A stretch of 37,279 nucleotides of DNA from Candidatus Binatia bacterium (GTDB lineage: Bacteria; Desulfobacterota; Binatia; Bin18), in NCBI GenBank assembly GCA_022824615.1, contig JAJDZM010000002.1, positions 1 through 37,279 of the forward strand, in the 5' to 3' direction. Of this stretch, positions 14,626 to 23,533 are shown piece by piece. How positions within the stretch are numbered: position 1 is the stretch's first letter; every line of letters begins with the position of its first letter. The notes under the pieces are model-generated. The model saw only the letters and a list, made by a program, of their open reading frames with translations. It did not search any database and had not been told where the DNA came from. The position numbers and the translations under genes were made by a program.

Positions 14626-14651
14626 TAGGGGCAATTCATGAATTGCCCCTA
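14626..14651. repeat. Perfect 26-base palindrome (GTAGGGGC family)
   Basis: The half-site TAGGGGCAATTCA is followed directly by its exact reverse complement, giving a perfect palindrome right after the nudC stop. Related elements with GTAGGGGCA next to a palindrome of different inner sequence occur at 24116-24138 and 27621-27646. It could fold as a terminator-like hairpin, but no T-run follows. Confidence 0.7.
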
Positions 14652-14757
14652 CCTTGGCCAGTCAAAGGGACGGGGAGAACCCACCCCGCCACTGACGCGG
14701 CAGGCCCCCCAAGAGGAAATGGTTGCTGGAATCCCTAGAACAAGGAAGTAAAGCAAT

Positions 14758-17625
14758 ATGGCAAACGCAACGGAGGTTGCCTACAACCTGTCCCTGGCAC
14801 GATTGCTGCGCCATGAGGGGCTGAGTGCAGAAGGAGAGCAACGCCGTGTTTTTGGTAGCTCCCGTGGGCAGGCTGATGTGCTGCTTGACTTCGATGAGTA
14901 TGCCGTCGTTCTTGAGGCCGAGTTCGGCTCTCCGGCAAAGGCAGACGCAGATAGGAGGCTTCCTCAAGACGCTCCGGCCATCGTGAATGGATTGCCAGTC
15001 AGGCTTGGCGTTGCTATTGGCTACCCCCAAAACCTTGCAGACTTGCCGGAGAGCAAGACAGACGAAAACCTGGCGGCCTGTCCCGACCTGCGTATTGCCT
15101 ATCGGTATTTCGGGGAGCCGTGGGGCGAAGAAACAACAGGCAGCGTTACCGATCTTGCCGAGGTCCTGCGGAACTACTGGATACAGAGTGACAATGGCAC
15201 TGGAATCGAGGAGACCGTCAGCCGTGCAGACGCGGCTATTCAGGCAGCGAGCAACGTTCTGACACGGATAGAATTGCAGGATCGGAGCGAGCAGGACGGA
15301 CCCGCCACAAAAGCGCTGATCTGGCTGAATGCCTTGCTCTTTCACGAACTCCTGGCCTTACACCTAGACCCCACTTTACTTCCTGAAGAACATCGCGGTA
15401 AACGCATCCTTCGTCCCGACCCTGATGGTGGCCCTTCTCATTTGCTTCAGCAATGGCGCGAGATACTGGAAATCAACTGGTGGCCGATTTTCCATATTGC
15501 CAGAGAAACCTTAAAGACGACGCCCAGCCCAACGAACCAGGAAGCGATACGCATCCTCAAACGGGCGGCGGCGGAGATTGCCGAGACCGGAACGATACGA
15601 CGCCATGATGTTGCCGGGCGGATATTCCACCGTTTGCTCGATTCAAGAAAGTTTCTGGCGACAAACTACACCACCATACCCGCAGCTATTCTCCTTGCGG
15701 GACTTGCCTTTGACGAGCGCAGTACGTGCTGGGCGGACTTTGACTTTACCGACCCGAAATCGGTTGCCGGTATGCGGGTTGTAGACCCGGCCTGTGGTAG
15801 CGGGACCTTGCTCATGGCGGCGGTGCAAGAGGTTATCAAACGGGCACGGCGAGACGGCCTGAGAGGGTCAGACGAACAAGAACTCATGCGCGCTACCCTG
15901 GAGGACGCAGTGTACGGATTTGATGTCGTCCCTGCTGCGATTCATTTGGCCGCCTCTACGTTGTGCATGGCAGAGTCGCGGCAGGTTATTCGAGACATGA
16001 ATCTGTGGCGGGTGCGTCATGAAATACTCGATAAAACCCCTCGGCTCGGTAGCCTCGATTTTCTTCCGGACTCTCCGAGTCGTGGCAATGCAGCGTGGTT
16101 GCCGGTTTTCACGGATGGAGCGTCGCTCCGTGTCACAGGGGCGGGTGAGGTTCCAGACGATGTGACGATGCCGAATCACTGCCACTTAGTCATTGCCAAT
16201 CCCCCCTTTACGCGGGCAGGGGGGCCGGGAGACGAGAAGAATACGCTGTGGAACCCGATATTTGGGTCCCTTTTAGACGCTGCTGACGCAAAGACCATGA
16301 ACGCCGCCTTGCAAAATACGCTGAAAAAAACTCCTGCCAGCCTCTACGCTGGTCTTGGCTCAGCCTTTGTCGTGCTGGCAGACGAAAATTTGTCTTTGGG
16401 TGGGCGTTTTGCTTTCGTGCTTCCCGCAACCGTGCTGACTGGAAGCCGTTGGAAAAGCATTCGGAAGATGTTGCTGGAAAAATACTGCATTGATTGGATA
16501 ATCGTCAGTCATGACAATCGGAATAGACATAGTGTTCAAGGCTTGCCTGGTCGTCGTTTGGTCTCTTTTTCAGAGTCCACTCGTATTGCCGAGGTCCTCA
16601 TCGTGGCAACAAAAAGTCGTGAGTTTGCAGCATCACAAAACCATGTCCGGTTTGTCAATTTGGTCAACAATCCTGACGAACCTGTGCAGGCTATGGCACT
16701 CACCCGCAAGCTGCTTGCGATGGATGGAGAGGCCTCTCCCTTTGAGCCCCAAGCGGTTGCTGTTGGTGGAACGAATTGGGGAAGCCTCGTAGTCGTTCCA
16801 CAAAAGGAACTCACAGATGAGCCGTGGGAATACACCGCGCTGGCCCAGCCCGAGCTTGTCCTTGTAGCAGAAAAAATAAGCGCTGGCAGAAGTCCGGCTT
16901 TGGGAGCAACAGGGATATCCGAGTTAGGAGATATCGCTCATTTGGGGCCATACCACATGCAGGTGAAAAACCCGAAGCATGGACTGTTTACGATTGCTGA
17001 GACAGAGGATGTTCTGCGGGCAGGAATTCCGGCCCTTTGGCACCATAAGGCAACACGGAATACTACCCTTGAATCAAAGGCCGATGCCCGTTTGGAGCGC
17101 CGGAGTGATACGGACCGGGTTGCACAGGATAAAATGCTTGCACGACAGGGGAGACTACATTTGGTATGCGATCTCGGCATGGCACCACAACGAGTCGCCG
17201 CTGTCCTGACACAACCCCCCATGCTCGGGGTTAGCTCATGGATCACACTTGTATTCAAAGAGCCTGCTCACGGAAAAGAAGAGGCCCTTTGCTTGTGGCT
17301 CAACTCTACACTGGGCCTTTTATTGCGAATCCTCAATAGCAACCGCCCCTATTTAGGGCGGTCTAGGCTGCCCCATGAACTTGCGCGGGTTTTACCGGTA
17401 TTAGATGTGAACACGCTCTCGGAAAGTCAGCTTGAAGCCGCCGTTGCTCTCTATGAAGACTTGAAAGCAAAAGAATTGAGAGGGTTCACTGATATTGCAA
17501 ACGATCCGGTCCGGGCTGAGTTGAATACCCGCCTCTGCCGTGAAGTGTTGGACGTTGATCCTTCCGCCGTTGATAACCTGACACACAAGCTGGCGAACGA
17601 GCCAACACTCCACGCGAGGGCCTAG
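14758..17625 (+). CDS. N6-adenine DNA methylase with possible nuclease-like N-terminus (type IIG-like)
   Basis: This 955-residue protein carries methyltransferase motif I D-P-A-C-G-S-G-T-L-L at 343-352 and the catalytic motif N-P-P-F at 481-484, placing it with HsdM and type IIG enzymes that methylate adenine. The first 60 residues contain G-Q-A-D-V-L-L and then V-V-L-E-A-E-F. This resembles the D...ExK core of PD-(D/E)XK nucleases, but with Glu in place of Lys (D40, E53, E55). Residues 280-340 resemble the HsdM helical region, and the C-terminal third could recognise target DNA. If the N-terminus is active, this is a one-protein restriction-modification enzyme. If not, it is a solo methylase serving the facing DUF488/TcmP block. 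AAGGAAG lies before the ATG. Confidence 0.85.
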   Translation: MANATEVAYNLSLARLLRHEGLSAEGEQRRVFGSSRGQADVLLDFDEYAVVLEAEFGSPAKADADRRLPQDAPAIVNGLPVRLGVAIGYPQNLADLPESKTDENLAACPDLRIAYRYFGEPWGEETTGSVTDLAEVLRNYWIQSDNGTGIEETVSRADAAIQAASNVLTRIELQDRSEQDGPATKALIWLNALLFHELLALHLDPTLLPEEHRGKRILRPDPDGGPSHLLQQWREILEINWWPIFHIARETLKTTPSPTNQEAIRILKRAAAEIAETGTIRRHDVAGRIFHRLLDSRKFLATNYTTIPAAILLAGLAFDERSTCWADFDFTDPKSVAGMRVVDPACGSGTLLMAAVQEVIKRARRDGLRGSDEQELMRATLEDAVYGFDVVPAAIHLAASTLCMAESRQVIRDMNLWRVRHEILDKTPRLGSLDFLPDSPSRGNAAWLPVFTDGASLRVTGAGEVPDDVTMPNHCHLVIANPPFTRAGGPGDEKNTLWNPIFGSLLDAADAKTMNAALQNTLKKTPASLYAGLGSAFVVLADENLSLGGRFAFVLPATVLTGSRWKSIRKMLLEKYCIDWIIVSHDNRNRHSVQGLPGRRLVSFSESTRIAEVLIVATKSREFAASQNHVRFVNLVNNPDEPVQAMALTRKLLAMDGEASPFEPQAVAVGGTNWGSLVVVPQKELTDEPWEYTALAQPELVLVAEKISAGRSPALGATGISELGDIAHLGPYHMQVKNPKHGLFTIAETEDVLRAGIPALWHHKATRNTTLESKADARLERRSDTDRVAQDKMLARQGRLHLVCDLGMAPQRVAAVLTQPPMLGVSSWITLVFKEPAHGKEEALCLWLNSTLGLLLRILNSNRPYLGRSRLPHELARVLPVLDVNTLSESQLEAAVALYEDLKAKELRGFTDIANDPVRAELNTRLCREVLDVDPSAVDNLTHKLANEPTLHARA

Positions 17626-17633
17626 CTGAGATG

Positions 17634-17663
17634 TCGGATTACGCCTCCGGCTAATCCGATCTA
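17634..17663. repeat. REP-like palindrome, island copy A
   Basis: TCGGATTA pairs with TAATCCGA around a ten-base loop, followed by TCTACG. It lies just after the methylase stop. It shares CGGCTAATCCG and the trailing CTACG or CTGCG with three other copies, at 18183, 19321 and 21475. Confidence 0.7.
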
Positions 17664-17712
17664 CGAGACTGTCATTTTTCGTACCGGGTTGCTTTGAGAG
17701 GATTTAATGGCT

Positions 17713-18114
17713 TCATTCGTCCTCGTAGAAAAACCAGTCCGGCTTTTCCCCGGACGCTGCAACATATAAATTTATTCCGATAATGGTTGGAGTAATGCCT
17801 TCTACCAGTCCCCGGAAACCTCCGGGTTTCAAGGGAAGCTTTGGATCACGAGACACGCAACCCAACGAAATTAGCTTTTCCAACGATATGTGCCAATGCT
17901 GATGTGAGAGTGCTTTTTCAATCTCATCAGGATCAATTAGCCTTAACTGCATACCGTCTTTGTCTTCGCTTTCCACTCCATTCCGGACGATAAACCCAAG
18001 AACATCACAATCCAGTCGTGAAAATTGGTGAAGGATCTCAACATAGGTTGTATAGAGGTGAAAATCACCCTCTGAACGTTCATCGGATGCGCTCGTCACA
18101 ATCGGGCGCGACAC
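17713..18114 (-). CDS. Hypothetical 133-residue protein
   Basis: No family is recognised. The sequence is a soluble mixed alpha/beta protein with an acidic end (W-F-F-Y-E-D-E). Its GTG start at 18114 has only a weak AGGG before it. The frame stays open upstream to 18201 and reads plausibly as protein, with a small hydrophobic patch A-L-G-A-V-A-G-I-S-G-F, but has no ATG, GTG or TTG there. The true start may therefore be non-standard, or the 5' end may be damaged. It is the last gene of the minus-strand block after DUF488, with a 111-base gap holding a REP-like copy. It is visibly richer in A+T than the catabolic genes, a sign of transfer. Confidence 0.55.
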   Translation of the reverse strand: MSRPIVTSASDERSEGDFHLYTTYVEILHQFSRLDCDVLGFIVRNGVESEDKDGMQLRLIDPDEIEKALSHQHWHISLEKLISLGCVSRDPKLPLKPGGFRGLVEGITPTIIGINLYVAASGEKPDWFFYEDE

Positions 18115-18182
18115 AAACCCTGAAATCCCAGCGACGGCCCCAAGGGCTTTTCTGAATCTTTGACATACCGTGATTATTTGCT

Positions 18183-18215
18183 GGCGTATGACGTTTCCGG
18201 CTCATGCGCCCTACG
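18183..18215. repeat. REP-like palindrome, island copy B
   Basis: GGCGTATG pairs with CATGCGCC (seven of eight positions) and is followed by CTACG. The loop region TTTCCGGCT aligns with copies A and C. It sits between the short DUF488 gene and the 133-residue gene. Confidence 0.6.
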
Positions 18216-18225
18216 GAGCTACCGA

Positions 18226-18663
18226 TTACCCCAGATGGACAATCTCAACATCGCCCCATTGCCTTTCGAGGTACTCTGCAACCAGCCGGCGGTGGCAATG
18301 TTCGGGTTTGTCCTCACTGCATAACAGGCATCCGTTGGAGATTGTCCTTTTTATGCCCTTTTTACCGATACGCCTCTCGTCCATAAGGGCCAAAAACTGG
18401 CGCTCATATGTTTCCCAGTCCTTGTGCTCTTTACGATAGGCGTCCAGCATCTCTTTGGTGGGGGCAAGGTCCGACAAATGAATGTACTTCATCCGGCAAA
18501 TCTTTTTTAGAAAGTATTCAAGATCATCTTTTTTGGCGAATCCCGCCAGTTGGGAGATATTGTTCAGTCGGACATCAACTAAACGTTTCGCGCCGGACTC
18601 GCGGAGGAGTTCAAAGAAGGTGGCAGCGGATTTTTTCGTGAAACCAATAGTATAGACTTTCAA
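18226..18663 (-). CDS. DUF488 family protein (short form)
   Basis: This 145-residue DUF488 protein opens with K-V-Y-T-I-G-F-T-K-K, the family's first strand, has L-V-D-V-R-L-N next, and ends with L-L-C-S-E-D-K-P-E-H-C-H-R-R-L-V, the conserved Cys/His signature. The biochemical function of the family is not established. The start is a TTG at 18663 that overlaps the stop of the upstream DUF488 gene (TTGA, four bases), so the two are translationally coupled. A pair of different DUF488 proteins side by side suggests a heteromer or two steps of one process (inference). Confidence 0.85.
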   Translation of the reverse strand: MKVYTIGFTKKSAATFFELLRESGAKRLVDVRLNNISQLAGFAKKDDLEYFLKKICRMKYIHLSDLAPTKEMLDAYRKEHKDWETYERQFLALMDERRIGKKGIKRTISNGCLLCSEDKPEHCHRRLVAEYLERQWGDVEIVHLG

Positions 18664-19295
18664 AATACACTCTCTCGCTGGTTGGCACGGGCCTGGGGTT
18701 TTTCGCCCCTATAGGCCACTTTCCGCGCCTGACGGGTGAGGGCATCAGCAATGACCTCCGCTCTGGAGGTGAACATATCGCCATCATGGGGCAGTTTGAA
18801 CATGTCCAGCAGTCGGTCCATAGCAGCGGAGTGGTTTTCTAGGCTGCCGTCGGCGAGGATGTGCTCAACTGCAACGCCGCGTTCTGAGAGTGTCCGAGCA
18901 ACCAGTAAGGTGCGGTGGCATTCCAAGGGTTCTTTCTCGGTACACATCAGGGCAATACGGCGTTCATTGGCATCACGCATGACACGCCTGAGACCATCAT
19001 CAAACAAGGCCGTATTCGCTACCCGGTCGTACCGGACTCTCCCGTTGGCGTCGTAGCACGAGCGGTCGGAAGGTCGCCCGCCTAGTTCGCGGCCCAGAAA
19101 CGTATACCCGATTCCCATCCCATCCAGCATCTGGTTCAAACTTTCTGAGTTGAAGTGCGTAATATGTCGGCTGTATGGGGTTGAGCGAACATCAACGACT
19201 TCAGCCACGTCGTGCCGGTGCAGCAGTTGGATGAACGTCTCCGGCGAATGGTTGGAATGGCCGATCGTGAACACTGGATATTGAGTTGTACTCAT
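18660..19295 (-). CDS. DUF488 family protein (long form)
   Basis: This 211-residue DUF488 protein has F-T-I-G-H-S-N-H-S, E-V-V-D-V-R-S-T-P-Y-S-R, G-R-E-L-G-G-R-P, and M-C-T-E-K-E-P-L-E-C-H-R-T-L-L-V. The last motif matches the Cys-x-E-...-C-H-R signature of the shorter partner downstream. A basic, Gln/Arg-rich tail of about 40 residues is extra and could bind nucleic acid (inference). ATG 19295 lacks a clear ribosome site. It lies 81 bases after the TcmP gene on the same strand, with a REP-like element between. DUF488 proteins often occur in defence or mobile islands, but no activity is known to me. Confidence 0.87.
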   Translation of the reverse strand: MSTTQYPVFTIGHSNHSPETFIQLLHRHDVAEVVDVRSTPYSRHITHFNSESLNQMLDGMGIGYTFLGRELGGRPSDRSCYDANGRVRYDRVANTALFDDGLRRVMRDANERRIALMCTEKEPLECHRTLLVARTLSERGVAVEHILADGSLENHSAAMDRLLDMFKLPHDGDMFTSRAEVIADALTRQARKVAYRGEKPQARANQRESVF

Positions 19296-19320
19296 TGTAC
19301 AGACACAACTCCGCCAGCCC

Positions 19321-19352
19321 CGCAGGGCGGATTAGCCGTAGGCGTAATTCGA
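19321..19352. repeat. REP-like palindrome, island copy C (inverted)
   Basis: On the minus strand it reads TCGAATTACGCC then TACGGCTAATCCGCC and CTGCG, close to copy A. It lies between the DUF488 pair and TcmP. With copy A it brackets the three downstream genes in inverted orientation. Confidence 0.65.
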
Positions 19353-19376
19353 CATTCTCGCTTGCACGAACAACAG

Positions 19377-20630
19377 TCAGCGTCGGCGTGAAGTTCCCGG
19401 CAGTAATAGCTGTTGGGGAAATGCAATCCGGTCTGTGGGAGTGACCCGCCTCAGCGCGCGCGAGCGGACCGTGCCATCTGGGCGCAGAATCTCAATTTCT
19501 CTTTCTCGAAAAAGTTCGAGGACGACGGAATCAAGGTCCGAGAATCGAGCGGCAGTTCTGTTCGCAAACATATGTCGCATCGTGTCTATGGTAACAGGTT
19601 CTTCGGACGCCAAACTGAAAAGTTCGTTGGGCATTGAGTTGAGCAGTTGCCTGCGCATGGCCTCGGCATCCAATTCTTCAAAATGGAACAGTGGGAGTGT
19701 TTCTGAGTTCAAGGCGTCCCATCCCAGCATGTCGAAGCCGCCAGGACCGTAATGTTCAAATTTGTTGTAATTGTTCCAGTGACATTGGATCATCACGTCA
19801 CGCGCCGTGGGATGTCTTGAAAGATGAAGGAACCATAGGGCGCGCCGCGACTGCCTGGGTCGAATGAAAAAAGGCGTATCATAGGTCGCTTTCGTTGCGT
19901 TACGAATGTGTCCCCGGAGTATCCTTTGAACGAGGGCTCTTCCGCCATCGCCATTACGAAGTTGGATCAAGTCGGATATTCGTTGTTCCGTCAGTTCGAG
20001 CGGAGTGACCATTCGGACGAATTCTGGCGTCTCCGCAAGAAAGTTGGTGAGGGCATCCGCCGCGAACGTCAGAATAATTTCTGCAGCGGGTAGCTCACTG
20101 AAAATCCGAGCGATGAGACTGATTTCCACCTGTGAAAAGCCGCACTGGTCCAGAAGAAAGAGTGAACGACCGGCTCTTGGTTGACGGCGGCGAATTTCGG
20201 CGATGATGTCGTCCACCACGTCTTCAAACCGACTGTTATGAACGACGATTCTTTCACTGTCCACTTGATAGCCACGTTCGTCCAAAACTTTTCGGAGGTG
20301 ATTTGTGTGGGCGGCTTCAATATCAACAAAATAGTATTTGAAGTCGAAATGAAGAGTTTTGGTACGGCTCTGGTTCAGCCTGTCTATCGCGGCTTCAGAT
20401 TCCTCAAGCATGATTAAAGGCGTACCGGATACGATCTCGTCGCCGGCCAGAAACGTACCTCCACCCGCAAAGCCATCAATAAGGTCGAGCTTGAATTGGT
20501 CGCGAGAAGGGTTGATGCTCAGCCTGTCGAAGTAAGCCCGAAGGTAACTGCGCAAGACATCTAGTTTCGCCTTGCTGTGTTCTTCTATCGAAGGGGGGGG
20601 TTCATTAGGATGCCATTTGAAGTCCGCCAT
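19377..20630 (-). CDS. tcmP: Three-Cys-motif partner protein TcmP
   Basis: This 417-residue protein matches TcmP, a family named for always pairing with the three-Cys DUF5131 (phage Gp37/Gp68-like) protein. K-L-D-L-I-D-G-F-A-G-G-G-T-F near 47-60 looks like the glycine loop of a Rossmann-fold SAM methyltransferase. L-F-L-L-D-Q-C-G-F-S-Q-V further on could be the motif IV strand. Catalytic residues cannot be assigned by eye and no reaction is known for the family. The ATG at 20630 follows GGAGGAAG and lies 26 bases inside the end of the DUF5131 gene, so the pair is translationally coupled. It may modify nucleic acid together with its partner (inference). Confidence 0.85.
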   Translation of the reverse strand: MADFKWHPNEPPPSIEEHSKAKLDVLRSYLRAYFDRLSINPSRDQFKLDLIDGFAGGGTFLAGDEIVSGTPLIMLEESEAAIDRLNQSRTKTLHFDFKYYFVDIEAAHTNHLRKVLDERGYQVDSERIVVHNSRFEDVVDDIIAEIRRRQPRAGRSLFLLDQCGFSQVEISLIARIFSELPAAEIILTFAADALTNFLAETPEFVRMVTPLELTEQRISDLIQLRNGDGGRALVQRILRGHIRNATKATYDTPFFIRPRQSRRALWFLHLSRHPTARDVMIQCHWNNYNKFEHYGPGGFDMLGWDALNSETLPLFHFEELDAEAMRRQLLNSMPNELFSLASEEPVTIDTMRHMFANRTAARFSDLDSVVLELFREREIEILRPDGTVRSRALRRVTPTDRIAFPQQLLLPGTSRRR

Positions 20631-21366
20631 CTTCCTCCGCCCCCAAATACCTGGGCACCCCGTTGTACTCGATTCCCTCTAGTATGCGCCCCTTTGCTTT
20701 CGGCGTCGGACCACCCCACTGCTTGAAAAAGAAGGGCACGCCCTCCTGCTCGCAACGGTCCCGCACCTCAATGGCCCACTCGGGCCGCATGGGCCGGGCC
20801 TTCGGGCCACTCTCCCCGCCAACAATAACCCAGGCGATTCCCTTGAGGTCTAGGTCCCCTATGGGGCCGAGCAATGGCTCGATGGAAAGAAAGCGCGTGG
20901 AGATGGGAGCCTGCTGGAGATGCCGAACCCTGGCGGTCGCCGTGTGGTCTTCAACAGACACGCCGCACCAGATATGTCGTGGGGCAGGACACGATTGATA
21001 GCGGCGCTGAACATATCTTTTCATGAGTGTACTACGCTTCGTCAATATCTGGAAAATATGCCGATCCGCCACTTCCATTATGTCGAACACTTGGTCGATG
21101 AACGCCGTGGGAACTTGCTTGTGGAACAGGTCACTCATGGAATTTACAAAGATCATGCGTGGTCGTTTCCACGTCAGTGGCTGGCTCAGGCGCTCAGGTC
21201 GGAGCGTTAAATCGAACCCGTGCTCAAAAGGGTGTCCGGGAACACTACGAAAGCGCTCGGAGAAGCGCTCAGCGTAACAATGGTCACAGCCCCGCGTGAT
21301 CTTGGTGCAGCCTGTCACCGGGTTCCAGGTTGCATCCGTCCACTCAATTGCAGATTTATAGCTCAT
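20605..21366 (-). CDS. DUF5131 three-Cys-motif protein (phage Gp37/Gp68 family)
   Basis: This 253-residue protein begins S-A-I-E-W-T-D-A-T-W-N-P-V-T-G-C, with C20, C27 and C30 forming C-x6-C-x2-C. This is the motif that names the family and resembles a radical-SAM or iron-sulfur site with unusual spacing. Later blocks F-V-N-S-M-S-D-L-F-H, L-T-K-R, W-C-G-V-S-V-E and V-G-G-E-S-G-P-K-A-R-P-M are also typical. The function is unknown; relatives occur in phages and defence islands. It is the first gene of the minus-strand block, and its last 26 bases overlap TcmP. Upstream is an AT-rich stretch with a possible -10 and a short palindrome. Confidence 0.87.
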   Translation of the reverse strand: MSYKSAIEWTDATWNPVTGCTKITRGCDHCYAERFSERFRSVPGHPFEHGFDLTLRPERLSQPLTWKRPRMIFVNSMSDLFHKQVPTAFIDQVFDIMEVADRHIFQILTKRSTLMKRYVQRRYQSCPAPRHIWCGVSVEDHTATARVRHLQQAPISTRFLSIEPLLGPIGDLDLKGIAWVIVGGESGPKARPMRPEWAIEVRDRCEQEGVPFFFKQWGGPTPKAKGRILEGIEYNGVPRYLGAEEDGGLQMAS

Positions 21367-21383
21367 GGTGGCACTACGTTACG

Positions 21384-21403
21384 TTATATACACAGCACGT
21401 GCT
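21384..21403 (-). promoter_or_regulatory. Possible promoter and operator of the DUF5131-TcmP block
   Basis: On the minus strand TATATAAC lies about 17 bases before the DUF5131 start, preceded by the perfect ten-base palindrome AGCACGTGCT. An AT-rich hexamer next to a palindrome suggests a regulated promoter. The -10 is unusually near the ATG and no clear -35 is seen. Confidence 0.3.
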
Positions 21404-21474
21404 ACTTGGTTGCCTCAGCGTTGGTGTCAATTCATAGGCGAATATAAAGCGAAAGTAAAGCGCCGGACCGTCAA

Positions 21475-21501
21475 CTTACGCATCCAGTTAATCCGACCCG
21501 C
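21475..21501. repeat. REP-like element, degenerate island copy D
   Basis: CTTACGCATCCAGT runs into TAATCCGACCCGCAG, matching copies A and C with several changes. It marks the outer edge of the island, between DUF5131 and the vapBC remnant. Confidence 0.4.
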
Positions 21502-21518
21502 AGGCTTCCATAAAAACC

Positions 21519-21723
21519 TTAGCTTGTTTTCTCGATCAGGCTACCGCGGCTTTCCACAACCATGGATGTCTCCAGCGCGTTGGCGACCGATATGCGGCAG
21601 GGCGAAGCCGTCGCGGCGTTCACGCAACGCTACGGTAATCGCGCCAGTCATGGTCTCGCCAGTCAATCGCGCCAACTCACCGGCCAGCCGGTAGGTTTCA
21701 TCGTTCTTGATATTGAGGCTCAT
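21519..21723 (-). pseudogene. vapB antitoxin gene fused by deletion to a vapC toxin fragment
   Basis: From ATG 21723, after GGAGGACGACC, the first 37 residues (M-S-L-N-I-K-N-D-E-T, then A-L-R-E-R) are a standard N-terminus of a VapB antitoxin of the Rv0623-like kind. After that the antitoxin sequence stops making sense and ends at 21541. In the next frame the same DNA reads C-R-I-S-V-A-N-A-L-E-T-S-M-V-V-E-S-R-G to a stop at 21519. That is a known internal stretch of VapC PIN-domain toxins (typically after the first Asp). A deletion has thus removed the vapB end and the vapC start. A 60-residue product could still be made and might bind DNA, but the toxin is dead. Confidence 0.6.
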
Positions 21724-21973
21724 GGTCGTCCTCCGGGTAGAATAACGTGCGTGAAGTCTACCCTACGCTGGGCCGCGGTCATGTACAACATCTTGGCTTT
21801 CCAAACTTTTCATAAGCGGAATCCGACATTTCCACTGCTTTCGTACTTACCTAACGAACGGCCAAATCGGGGAATATGAGCACAGGATTAAAGGCACCTG
21901 TGACATGGTTGGCGGGCTCTTCTTGAATATTCCTCGTCTTGACGAAAGACTACGTATAGGAGAAAACGATCGC

Positions 21974-22246
21974 ATGAGTGAGTTTGAGACAGCGACGCTT
22001 GCCTTCCAGAATGCTTCCCTAGCAGCGACGTACTGGGCAACCTATGTCCAAGCGGGGGTCGCGGGCCTGGTGGGATTGGTGCAATGCCTCTTGATTGCCT
22101 ACGGCTTAAGGTTGATGCAGCGGAACAATGCTGACCGGCAACGCCAAACAGACCTCGCCGAAAAACGGCATGAGGAAAGCATGCTGGCCTTACATCAGCA
22201 GGGAGAAGCCTTACGGACGCTGATCGAACGGACCGCCCACCAGTAA
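21974..22246 (+). CDS. Small single-pass membrane protein with coiled-coil tail
   Basis: This 90-residue protein has F-E-T-A-T-L-A-F-Q-N-A-S-L-A-A-T at the N-terminus, one membrane helix at about 24-45 (V-Q-A-G-V-A-G-L-V-G-L-V-Q-C-L-L-I-A-Y-G-L), and then a charged helix with heptad-like spacing that is rich in Q, R, E and H. No domain name is recognised. The start is ATG 21974, after ATAGGAG with ten bases between; an upstream ATG at 21905 lacks a ribosome site. Similar small proteins are seen in mobile regions. It stands alone between the vapBC remnant and a convergent methyltransferase gene. A hairpin follows its stop. Confidence 0.6.
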   Translation: MSEFETATLAFQNASLAATYWATYVQAGVAGLVGLVQCLLIAYGLRLMQRNNADRQRQTDLAEKRHEESMLALHQQGEALRTLIERTAHQ

Positions 22247-22270
22247 CGCTCACCCCCCTTACAATTGACT

Positions 22271-22288
22271 CCTCCCAAAAACGGGAGG
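22271..22288. terminator. Hairpin after the small membrane protein gene
   Basis: CCTCCC pairs with GGGAGG around AAAAAC. On the minus strand the loop is GTTTTT, and the segment resembles the hairpin at the right end of IS200/IS605-type elements. As a terminator it lacks a following T-run on the plus strand. It lies between two convergent genes. Confidence 0.4.
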
Positions 22289-22343
22289 GCTTGATTCAGA
22301 AGTTCCGGAGGTCGGATGAGCCCTGGGACGTAACCCGACATCC

Positions 22344-22960: not shown

Positions 22961-23533
22961 TTATCCTTCTTGCTCCGGCCACCAGCGGCCCAGGTCAATC
23001 TCAATGGCATCAAAGGGTTCGGCCCGTATCAGGCCACTCCCGCCGTATGTACTCGCCACAACCCAGCGTTGCGATTCCAGACGATACACTTCCAGGGTGC
23101 GCAGACCGGGATCGACCAGCCACAAATGACCCACCTGCTCTCGGGCATAGATCGGCATTTTGAGCACCCGGTCGCTACGGCCCGTGCTGGGCGACACCAC
23201 CTCACACACCCAATCAGGAGCCAGTTCGCTATACGGCACATCTTCCAGCACGGGCATACGTTCTCTTCGCCACCCGGCGATATCCGGAACGAGAATATCT
23301 GCACCAAGATGCACTTCCGGCTCGAAAAGAATCCACCAGCCCCCAGGACCGTCGGGTCCATCGGGACTCCGGGAGAAGGAACCAATATCTTGTATAATCG
23401 AGGAAGAAGCATGGGCGTGGGGGAAGGACGGCCGGGGCGCGGTCGTCAATTCGCCGTCAATGATCTCCGCAACAAAACGCTCAGGGACCTGGAGCAGGTC
23501 CGCATAGGTGGCTCGTTTCCGCGCCGGGTTCAT
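22961..23533 (-). CDS. Uma2 family (DUF820) nuclease-fold protein
   Basis: This 190-residue protein is a Uma2/DUF820 member of the PD-(D/E)XK nuclease superfamily. Key stretches are I-I-D-G-E-L near the N-terminus, L-V-P-D-I-A-G-W-R, W-V-C-E-V-V-S-P-S-T-G-R-S-D-R, K in V-L-K-M-P-I-Y-A-R, then G-H-L-W-L-V-D-P-G-L-R-T-L-E-V-Y. The Asp, Glu and Lys of the fold all seem present. Members are very numerous in some bacteria and their role is unproven. A Pro/Gly-rich insertion (P-D-G-P-D-G-P-G-G) sits near residue 57. The ATG at 23533 has no strong ribosome site. The methyltransferase gene follows after eight bases. Confidence 0.88.
   Translation of the reverse strand: MNPARKRATYADLLQVPERFVAEIIDGELTTAPRPSFPHAHASSSIIQDIGSFSRSPDGPDGPGGWWILFEPEVHLGADILVPDIAGWRRERMPVLEDVPYSELAPDWVCEVVSPSTGRSDRVLKMPIYAREQVGHLWLVDPGLRTLEVYRLESQRWVVASTYGGSGLIRAEPFDAIEIDLGRWWPEQEG

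Follow-up and report, generated by a model that had tools for sequence, protein, structure and literature searches.

The DNA analysed here (the window, 37,279 nucleotides of contig JAJDZM010000002.1, assembly GCA_022824615.1, from a Candidatus Binatia bacterium) carries an inserted island in which an N6-adenine methylase gene on the plus strand converges on orf133, DUF488-C, DUF488-B, TcmP and DUF5131, all on the minus strand. This layout, the convergence, and the overlaps of 26 bases between the DUF5131 and TcmP open reading frames (ORFs) and of 4 bases between those of DUF488-B and DUF488-C are as described in a first-pass annotation of the same DNA; TcmP and DUF488-B are separated by 81 bases. 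The features of the island are as follows.

14630-22300 (about), no strand: whole inserted island, from blastn junctions in same-genus genomes
14758-17625, plus: N6-adenine methylase, 955 amino acids (PF02384, E 3e-8)
17632-17665, minus: palindrome copy 1, after the methylase (repeat search and genome-wide copies)
17713-18114, minus: orf133, GTG start (Abi_alpha, E 0.004, below cut-off)
18226-18663, minus: DUF488-C (PDC-M45C), TTG start (PDLC04658, E 4e-73; PF22751, 'active DUF488-N3 subclade', above cut-off)
18660-19295, minus: DUF488-B (PDC-M45B) (PDLC04657, E 1e-79)
19321-19354, plus: palindrome copy 2, in the gap between TcmP and DUF488-B, where locus L030 of another genome has a truncated DuOB gene
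19377-20630, minus: TcmP (TIGR04474, E 1e-56, above cut-off)
20605-21366, minus: DUF5131 (PF07505, E 6e-95)
21544-21723, minus: truncated VapB/Rv0623-like antitoxin remnant upstream of DUF5131 (PF07704, E 2e-14, profile positions 1-37 of 82)
22306-22340, plus: palindrome copy 3, more divergent, at the right border

Both DUF488 genes also match PF04343 (E 1e-25 and 3e-22). By sequence comparison the family matches of DUF5131, the DUF488 pair, N6_Mtase and TcmP are far beyond chance, and the predicted catalytic residues are intact in the island enzymes except for a variant motif IV in TcmP. The G+C content of the island is 0.51-0.56, against 0.57-0.62 in the nearby surroundings. A scan of positions 17500-21900 for sigma-70 promoters found 0 against 2.8 expected, and no tRNA gene was found in the window.

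An insertion at a chromosomal defence hotspot

Two same-genus genomes have the empty site, which shows the island to be an insertion, and other cargo at this place in further sisters marks it as a defence hotspot. The site was located with a left-flank probe in six same-genus genomes, and the regions were compared for all six (G400 over 3 kb only). By blastn, window positions 14629 and 22301 are contiguous in G402 (overlap of 11 bases), and 28 bases separate 14620 from 22305 in G401; the flanks of the empty sites are 90-95% identical to the window. The same gap is occupied in G403 by a 1141-residue type IIG/ISP restriction enzyme (PDLC03610, E 4e-91; PF18135, E 4e-39) and a 396-residue ORF without any match, in G404 by a 900-residue UvrD-type helicase, and in G399 by a Type_ISP_C domain remnant and a GIY-YIG gene, while the G400 piece stops short of the right flank. 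The site is thus empty or filled with other cargo in all five resolved sister genomes. No DUF488-C (M45C) was found in any of the six sisters; among the 13 genomes searched, only G405, of the same family, has it, there with neither TcmP nor an intact DUF488-B. The defence island proposed by the first-pass annotation is supported by the empty site together with the re-use of the site by other defence cargo.

The island is divided by a dispersed palindrome, detected as a 41-base inverted repeat with one arm just past the methylase and the other between TcmP and DUF488-B. It has 10 copies with at most 3 mismatches in the genome, copies 1 and 2 included; the reversed control gave 0. The palindrome also marks the right border in four sisters (G399, G401, G402 and G403), with a copy at the end of the restriction gene in G403 and of the remnant in G399; the G404 piece gave none, and neither did two shuffled windows. 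Read from left to right, the island consists of the methylase, a repeat, orf133 with the DUF488 pair, a repeat, TcmP with DUF5131 and the antitoxin remnant, and a repeat. It looks like a mosaic of three modules (methylase, DUF488 block and TcmP-DUF5131), because the palindrome copies divide them. Candidate roles of the palindrome are a mobile element, a recombination point or a terminator. A further copy is found about 1.4 kb before a paralogue of the methylase on contig C290, and loci L251, L252, L253 and L254 have the palindrome at the borders of defence cargo at the same hotspot.

Directly outside the island lies a Uma2-family gene (22961-23533, minus strand; PF05685, PADLOC PDC-S03). G401 and G402 lack the sequence between about 23004 and 24127, which makes this a second small variable site.

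Predicted enzymes of the island

DUF5131 carries a CX6CX2C motif whose cysteines (C20, C27 and C30) are present in at least 99% of 112 sequences, the third being followed by a Tyr. Its AlphaFold2 model (54 sequences; predicted local distance difference test, pLDDT, 92.8) is closest to spore photoproduct lyase (Foldseek E 4.4e-3, probability 1.0; VIA Z 13.2 over 194 residues at 3.0 Å), followed by viperin-like enzymes (VIA Z 11.4, 192 residues, 3.4 Å) and RlmN (VIA Z 11.1, 193 residues, 3.7 Å). The protein combines the features of the radical S-adenosylmethionine (SAM) superfamily, a three-Cys 4Fe-4S motif and a partial TIM barrel, with a non-canonical Cys spacing, the canonical spacing being CX3CX2C. 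DUF5131 models as a predicted radical-SAM-type enzyme of the spore photoproduct lyase/viperin kind, which agrees with the radical-SAM-like character that had been proposed for the three-Cys protein; it shares with those enzymes the fold and the Tyr after the third Cys, and differs from them in its CX6CX2C spacing and an identity of about 10%.

The TcmP model (AlphaFold2, 28 sequences, pLDDT 80) best matches a DUF519 protein (VIA Z 17.4) and RlmJ (Z 17.0, 3.2 Å, 223 residues), and also matches Trm1 (Z 14.8, 7.6 Å, 251 residues), in keeping with the SAM fold expected by the first-pass annotation. TcmP thus models as a predicted RlmJ-like methyltransferase. Its likeness to RlmJ and Trm1 lies in the fold, and it differs in an extra C-terminal part resembling a winged helix-turn-helix (PF22560, E 0.001, below cut-off). 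Motif I (DGFAGGG) is retained. Motif IV is DPPY in RlmJ, whereas most TcmP relatives have DPxG and the protein of the window has DQCG; DP is found in 45 of 54 sequences, and the DQ minority comes from 6 distinct loci, own genome included. Sequence searches of the PDB returned nothing for TcmP or DUF5131.

Both pairs match candidate models of PADLOC, so that the term 'undescribed' used for the block in the first-pass annotation does not hold. DUF5131 matches PDLC04569 (E 3e-101) and PDLC04639 (E 3e-100), which are M30B/M41B, and TcmP matches M30A (PDLC04566, E 1e-17) and M41A (E 8e-14). Window and PDC-M30/M41 (TcmP plus DUF5131) therefore agree in both proteins, here with overlapping genes, and differ in motif IV of TcmP, where most relatives have DPxG. 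The PDC systems are described as candidates obtained by 'guilt-by-embedding'; in a panel of 100 Pseudomonas aeruginosa strains, 32 were predicted to carry PDC-M30, and 68.8% of these were resistant (PMC10855318). In a table of another study, TcmP (SMa2243) stands next to the defence helicase Hna (SMa2245) (PMC12445080). A limited literature search found no functional study of DUF5131, TcmP, DUF488 or DuOB.

The Cys/His signatures noted earlier in the two DUF488 proteins are confirmed: a Cys-x-Glu...Cys-His-Arg motif is intact in both, and it is invariant or nearly so in their relatives (80 DUF488-B and 102 DUF488-C sequences). Gene neighbourhoods were compared in the best 80 of 348 confirmed loci similar to DUF488-C (the M45C loci), some of them cut by contig ends. 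DUF488-B adjoins DUF488-C in 66 of the 80, and DuOB (PF22557, equal to PDC-M45A) is present at 59, with a DuOB-like family at 5 further loci (one member scanned, PF22557 E 1e-9). The 4-base overlap seen in the window recurs in 41 of 110 DUF488-C ORFs examined (own genome counted twice). With respect to PDC-M45, both DUF488 proteins of the window match M45B and M45C over their full length and are adjacent on the same strand, but DuOB (M45A) is missing and TcmP lies upstream in its place. DuOB was not found beside the pair or elsewhere in the genome, which is 89.6% complete (PF22557 and PDLC04653; PF22557 matched 3 of 4 comparison genomes). The sequence search of the PDB with DUF488-B gave nothing usable (best E 0.02, a LacI-type regulator). 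At a locus of an Allochromatium plasmid (L240, 8307-10031), DuOB-DUF488-DUF488 lies beside type III-B CRISPR genes (csx16, csm6, cmr).

In four of the 59 loci with DuOB, a RecQ-like helicase with a C-terminal DuOB lies directly upstream of the DUF488 pair (L070:6443-9349; L073:787-3726; L080:6467-9355; L105:6467-9361; custom hidden Markov model). By Pfam the L070 fusion consists of DEAD, RQC, HRDC and DuOB (E 2e-48). This fusion ties the DUF488 pair to DNA unwinding and speaks for DNA as its substrate. The fusion also fits a proposal reportedly made by Burroughs and Aravind in 2023, who are said to place DUF488 in the rhodanese-phosphatase superfamily and to predict DNA-end processing for it.

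A paralogue of the methylase (32% identity) is encoded elsewhere in its genome, and relatives were found in 7 of the 395 phylum genomes, own included; at most 2 first-look candidates were scored per genome, so that some relatives may be missed. Five aligned full-length proteins share a conserved D...ExE in their N-terminal stretch, which matched no curated nuclease model. This stretch may be PD-(D/E)xK-like and the protein a type IIG-like restriction-modification candidate; it resembles type IIG enzymes and PglX in having N6-methylase motifs behind a putatively nuclease-like N-terminal stretch in a single chain, and differs in being without a strong model match (the best PADLOC match, E 6e-10, covers just some 80 residues). 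In the relatives at L141, L143 and L148 a gene of 216-223 codons precedes a methylase of 763-771 residues. Two of these small proteins have no Pfam match, and a split nuclease at these loci is a guess.

The methylase had been proposed as a self-marking or restriction partner of the other genes. This role is rejected: in the 6 other genomes with a relative it never lies near DUF5131 or M45C by coordinates, and no relative occurs in the examined flanks of other M45C loci. The methylase is judged a separate cassette. Likewise, orf133 is rejected as a cassette member: outside its own genome it has no relative at the M45C loci examined (80 with flanks of up to 10 kb, and 27 more spanning about 3.4 kb or less), and a search of the plasmid collection gave no match.

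Association of the two pairs in other genomes

TcmP/DUF5131 and DUF488 genes are found together in five other contexts, L030, L040, L052 (Rhodothermales), L101 and L239. Around the M45C loci DUF5131 lies in the examined flanks of 5 of the 80 (L030, L040, L052, L097 and L101), TcmP being present in all of these except L097, where DUF5131 is in two pieces on opposite strands. The closest case, L030, belongs to a Binatota metagenome-assembled genome and has a fused DUF5131-TcmP gene followed by a truncated DuOB, only the tail of DUF488-B, and DUF488-C. L052 has DUF5131-TcmP-DUF488-C, with an upstream fragment that holds the starts of DUF5131 and DUF488-B. In L040 a single strand encodes HmaA-TcmP-DUF5131-HmaB-DuOB-DUF488-B-DUF488-C-HmaC. 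The pairs are co-directional in these three loci, as in the window, whereas in L101 (Mycobacterium szulgai) and L239 DuOB-DUF488-DUF488 converges on DUF5131-TcmP. L239 is an Agrobacterium plasmid on which the pairs lie near CBASS genes and an integrase; it was found among the matches listed (the best 25 of 60 TcmP and 40 of 111 DUF488 plasmid records), and more such cases may exist.

The likeness to Hma and other DUF499-centred, BREX-related systems consists in the presence of both modules inside the HmaABC operon of L040, whereas HmaA, HmaB and HmaC are not among the PADLOC matches listed for the six island proteins (for the methylase, the best 25 of 38). Hma was named as a candidate system (PMC8565338), a later study is cited as confirming a defence role of HmaA and Hma is ranked with BREX-related systems (PMC12839542), and some Hma-embedded candidates are described as antiviral in assays (PMC12988326).

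The cases with linked pairs do not form one clade, which suggests repeated association. On trees made with a quick method the label 'linked' changes 5 times for DUF5131 (117 rows; at least 4 changes forced by starred branches) and 6 times for DUF488-C (112 rows; 3 forced), the latter count being one too high through the labelling of the own-genome copy as unlinked. The branch of L239 is very long on these trees.

The first-pass annotation had suggested that DUF5131, TcmP and the two DUF488 proteins may together make or recognise a nucleic-acid modification, with the methylase as partner. One integrated system of DUF5131, TcmP and both DUF488 proteins, perhaps with orf133 and the methylase, would account for the five other contexts, the co-directional order in three of them, the scatter of linked cases on the DUF5131 tree, and the frequency of DUF5131 around the 80 M45C loci (1.30 Mb), where 5 were found against 0.065 expected (77-fold, P 9e-9). 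This expectation derives from a count by eye (73 places in the 395 genomes) and from an assumed mean genome size of 3.7 Mb, with loci from many phyla and a background from one. However, the restriction gene HsdM, taken as a control around the same loci, is enriched as well: 4 against 0.116 expected (34-fold), or 3 without the query's own locus (26-fold). The difference between DUF5131 and HsdM is not significant (P 0.19; P 0.12 for 5 versus 3), and general clustering of defence genes may therefore explain much of the linkage. The HsdM query itself comes from one of the 80 loci, having been chosen for the recurrence of this family there, and the HsdM background (127 places by eye, at most 3 candidates scored per genome) is a lower bound, which makes 26- to 34-fold an upper bound.

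At the level of whole genomes the association is weak. Of the 395 genomes from the phylum, 62 have DUF5131 and 24 have M45C; 7 have both, where 3.8 would be expected (P 0.064). The two are close only in the window's genome and in 0 of the 6 others that have both, 4 of which are drafts with the genes on different contigs, where a contig end could hide a link. Seen from DUF5131, a DUF488 gene lies near 0 of 30 cellular loci (flanks of about 1.5 kb) and 1 of 80 viral loci (L168, a weak case; flanks of up to 5 kb). The linkage was rejected as proof of one system on account of this weak co-occurrence and of an enrichment inseparable from the HsdM control. Linkage of TcmP/DUF5131 with DUF488 genes does recur in other contexts; the modules are usually apart, with repeats between them here, a convergent arrangement in L101 and L239, and no relatives of the methylase and orf133 at other M45C loci. 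A single system is considered unlikely.

Interpretation of the island

The block is, with moderate confidence, interpreted as horizontally acquired, stacked defence cargo of three modules at a hotspot, whose enzymes probably modify or process nucleic acid. The modules would be (a) a restriction-modification-like methylase, (b) a DUF488-B/DUF488-C pair of the PDC-M45 type without the usual DuOB, and (c) a DUF5131-TcmP pair of the PDC-M30/M41 type. DUF5131 would carry out radical chemistry on a nucleotide or nucleobase with the help of SAM and a 4Fe-4S cluster, and the RlmJ/Trm1-like TcmP would position or methylate the same nucleic acid. The DUF488 cysteine enzymes may act on phosphate or modified DNA ends held by DuOB, or here perhaps by another protein. 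Modules (b) and (c) may cooperate as add-ons, as in the Hma operon of L040, and probably also act alone.

This interpretation draws on what is directly established, namely the insertion, the re-use of the site, the family matches, the intact motifs and the model folds. Several observations weigh against it. A fold by itself is no proof of function, and the PDC families are non-validated, unproven candidates (PMC10855318). The Foldseek matches of the DUF5131 model all have E values of 0.001 or higher, and the radical-SAM assignment is therefore carried by the agreement of the fold with the Cys motif. The DQCG motif of TcmP, in place of DPxG, may mean a different catalysis, the DUF488 pair may be impaired without DuOB, and related alleles (L030 and L258) have lost most of DUF488-B. 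The similarity of the G404 helicase to GajB is weak only (E 9e-9). Finally, DUF5131 is common on phages and viral contigs, which also fits a gene serving the phage.

The last point leads to the possibility that DUF5131-TcmP is phage-derived protective or repair cargo, acting in self-modification, anti-restriction or photoproduct repair and not in host defence. DUF5131 was confirmed in at least 592 viral stretches and matched by 161 of 50,697 phage records, TcmP adjoins it in 27 of 80 viral (and 23 of 30 cellular) loci, the nearest tree relatives of the window's DUF5131 after L030 are viral contigs, and the closest fold is that of spore photoproduct lyase. On the other hand, L040 has the pair inside its Hma operon and L239 has defence genes near it, PHROG families of a structural category were matched by none of the six proteins of the island, and restriction and helicase genes occupy this site in sister genomes. 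This origin and role are held to be quite improbable. M45C, for its part, is rare in viral contigs (7, close relatives only).

A more specific scheme, in which DUF5131 and TcmP make a novel nucleic-acid or nucleotide modification, the DUF488 pair acts on the product, and TcmP replaces DuOB as the partner that handles the substrate, is very doubtful; if true, it would represent a new class of radical-SAM-based antiviral chemistry. Least probable by far is an effector/guard (toxin-antitoxin-like) relation between DUF488-B and DUF488-C, to which the internally deleted or truncated DUF488-B beside a kept DUF488-C in L258 (G405:C59), L030 and the upstream fragment of L052 and the 11 of 80 loci with DUF488-C but neither DUF488-B nor DuOB called (one of them, L061, with almost no upstream sequence) could point, whereas the loci were picked by DUF488-C, so that loci with DUF488-B only are uncountable (one, on a Bosea plasmid, has DUF488-B without DUF488-C), the DUF488-C of L030 (91% identical to that of the window) itself carries an in-frame stop, and both proteins keep an identical catalytic motif. 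The loss of DUF488-B may reflect such a relation or simple decay.

Most useful among the new findings are the assignment of DUF5131-TcmP as a predicted radical SAM enzyme and methyltransferase, the loose but recurring link to DUF488 pairs, the missing DuOB together with the RecQ fusion, and the repeat-bounded mosaic. Two uncharacterised defence-candidate modules thereby gain a testable chemistry, a radical SAM enzyme with a methyltransferase in one case and a cysteine-enzyme pair tied to a DNA-binding domain (DuOB) fused to RecQ in the other. The modules combine more than once, once within a named defence operon, and the sister genomes show the module-by-module rebuilding of a defence hotspot beside copies of a short palindromic repeat.

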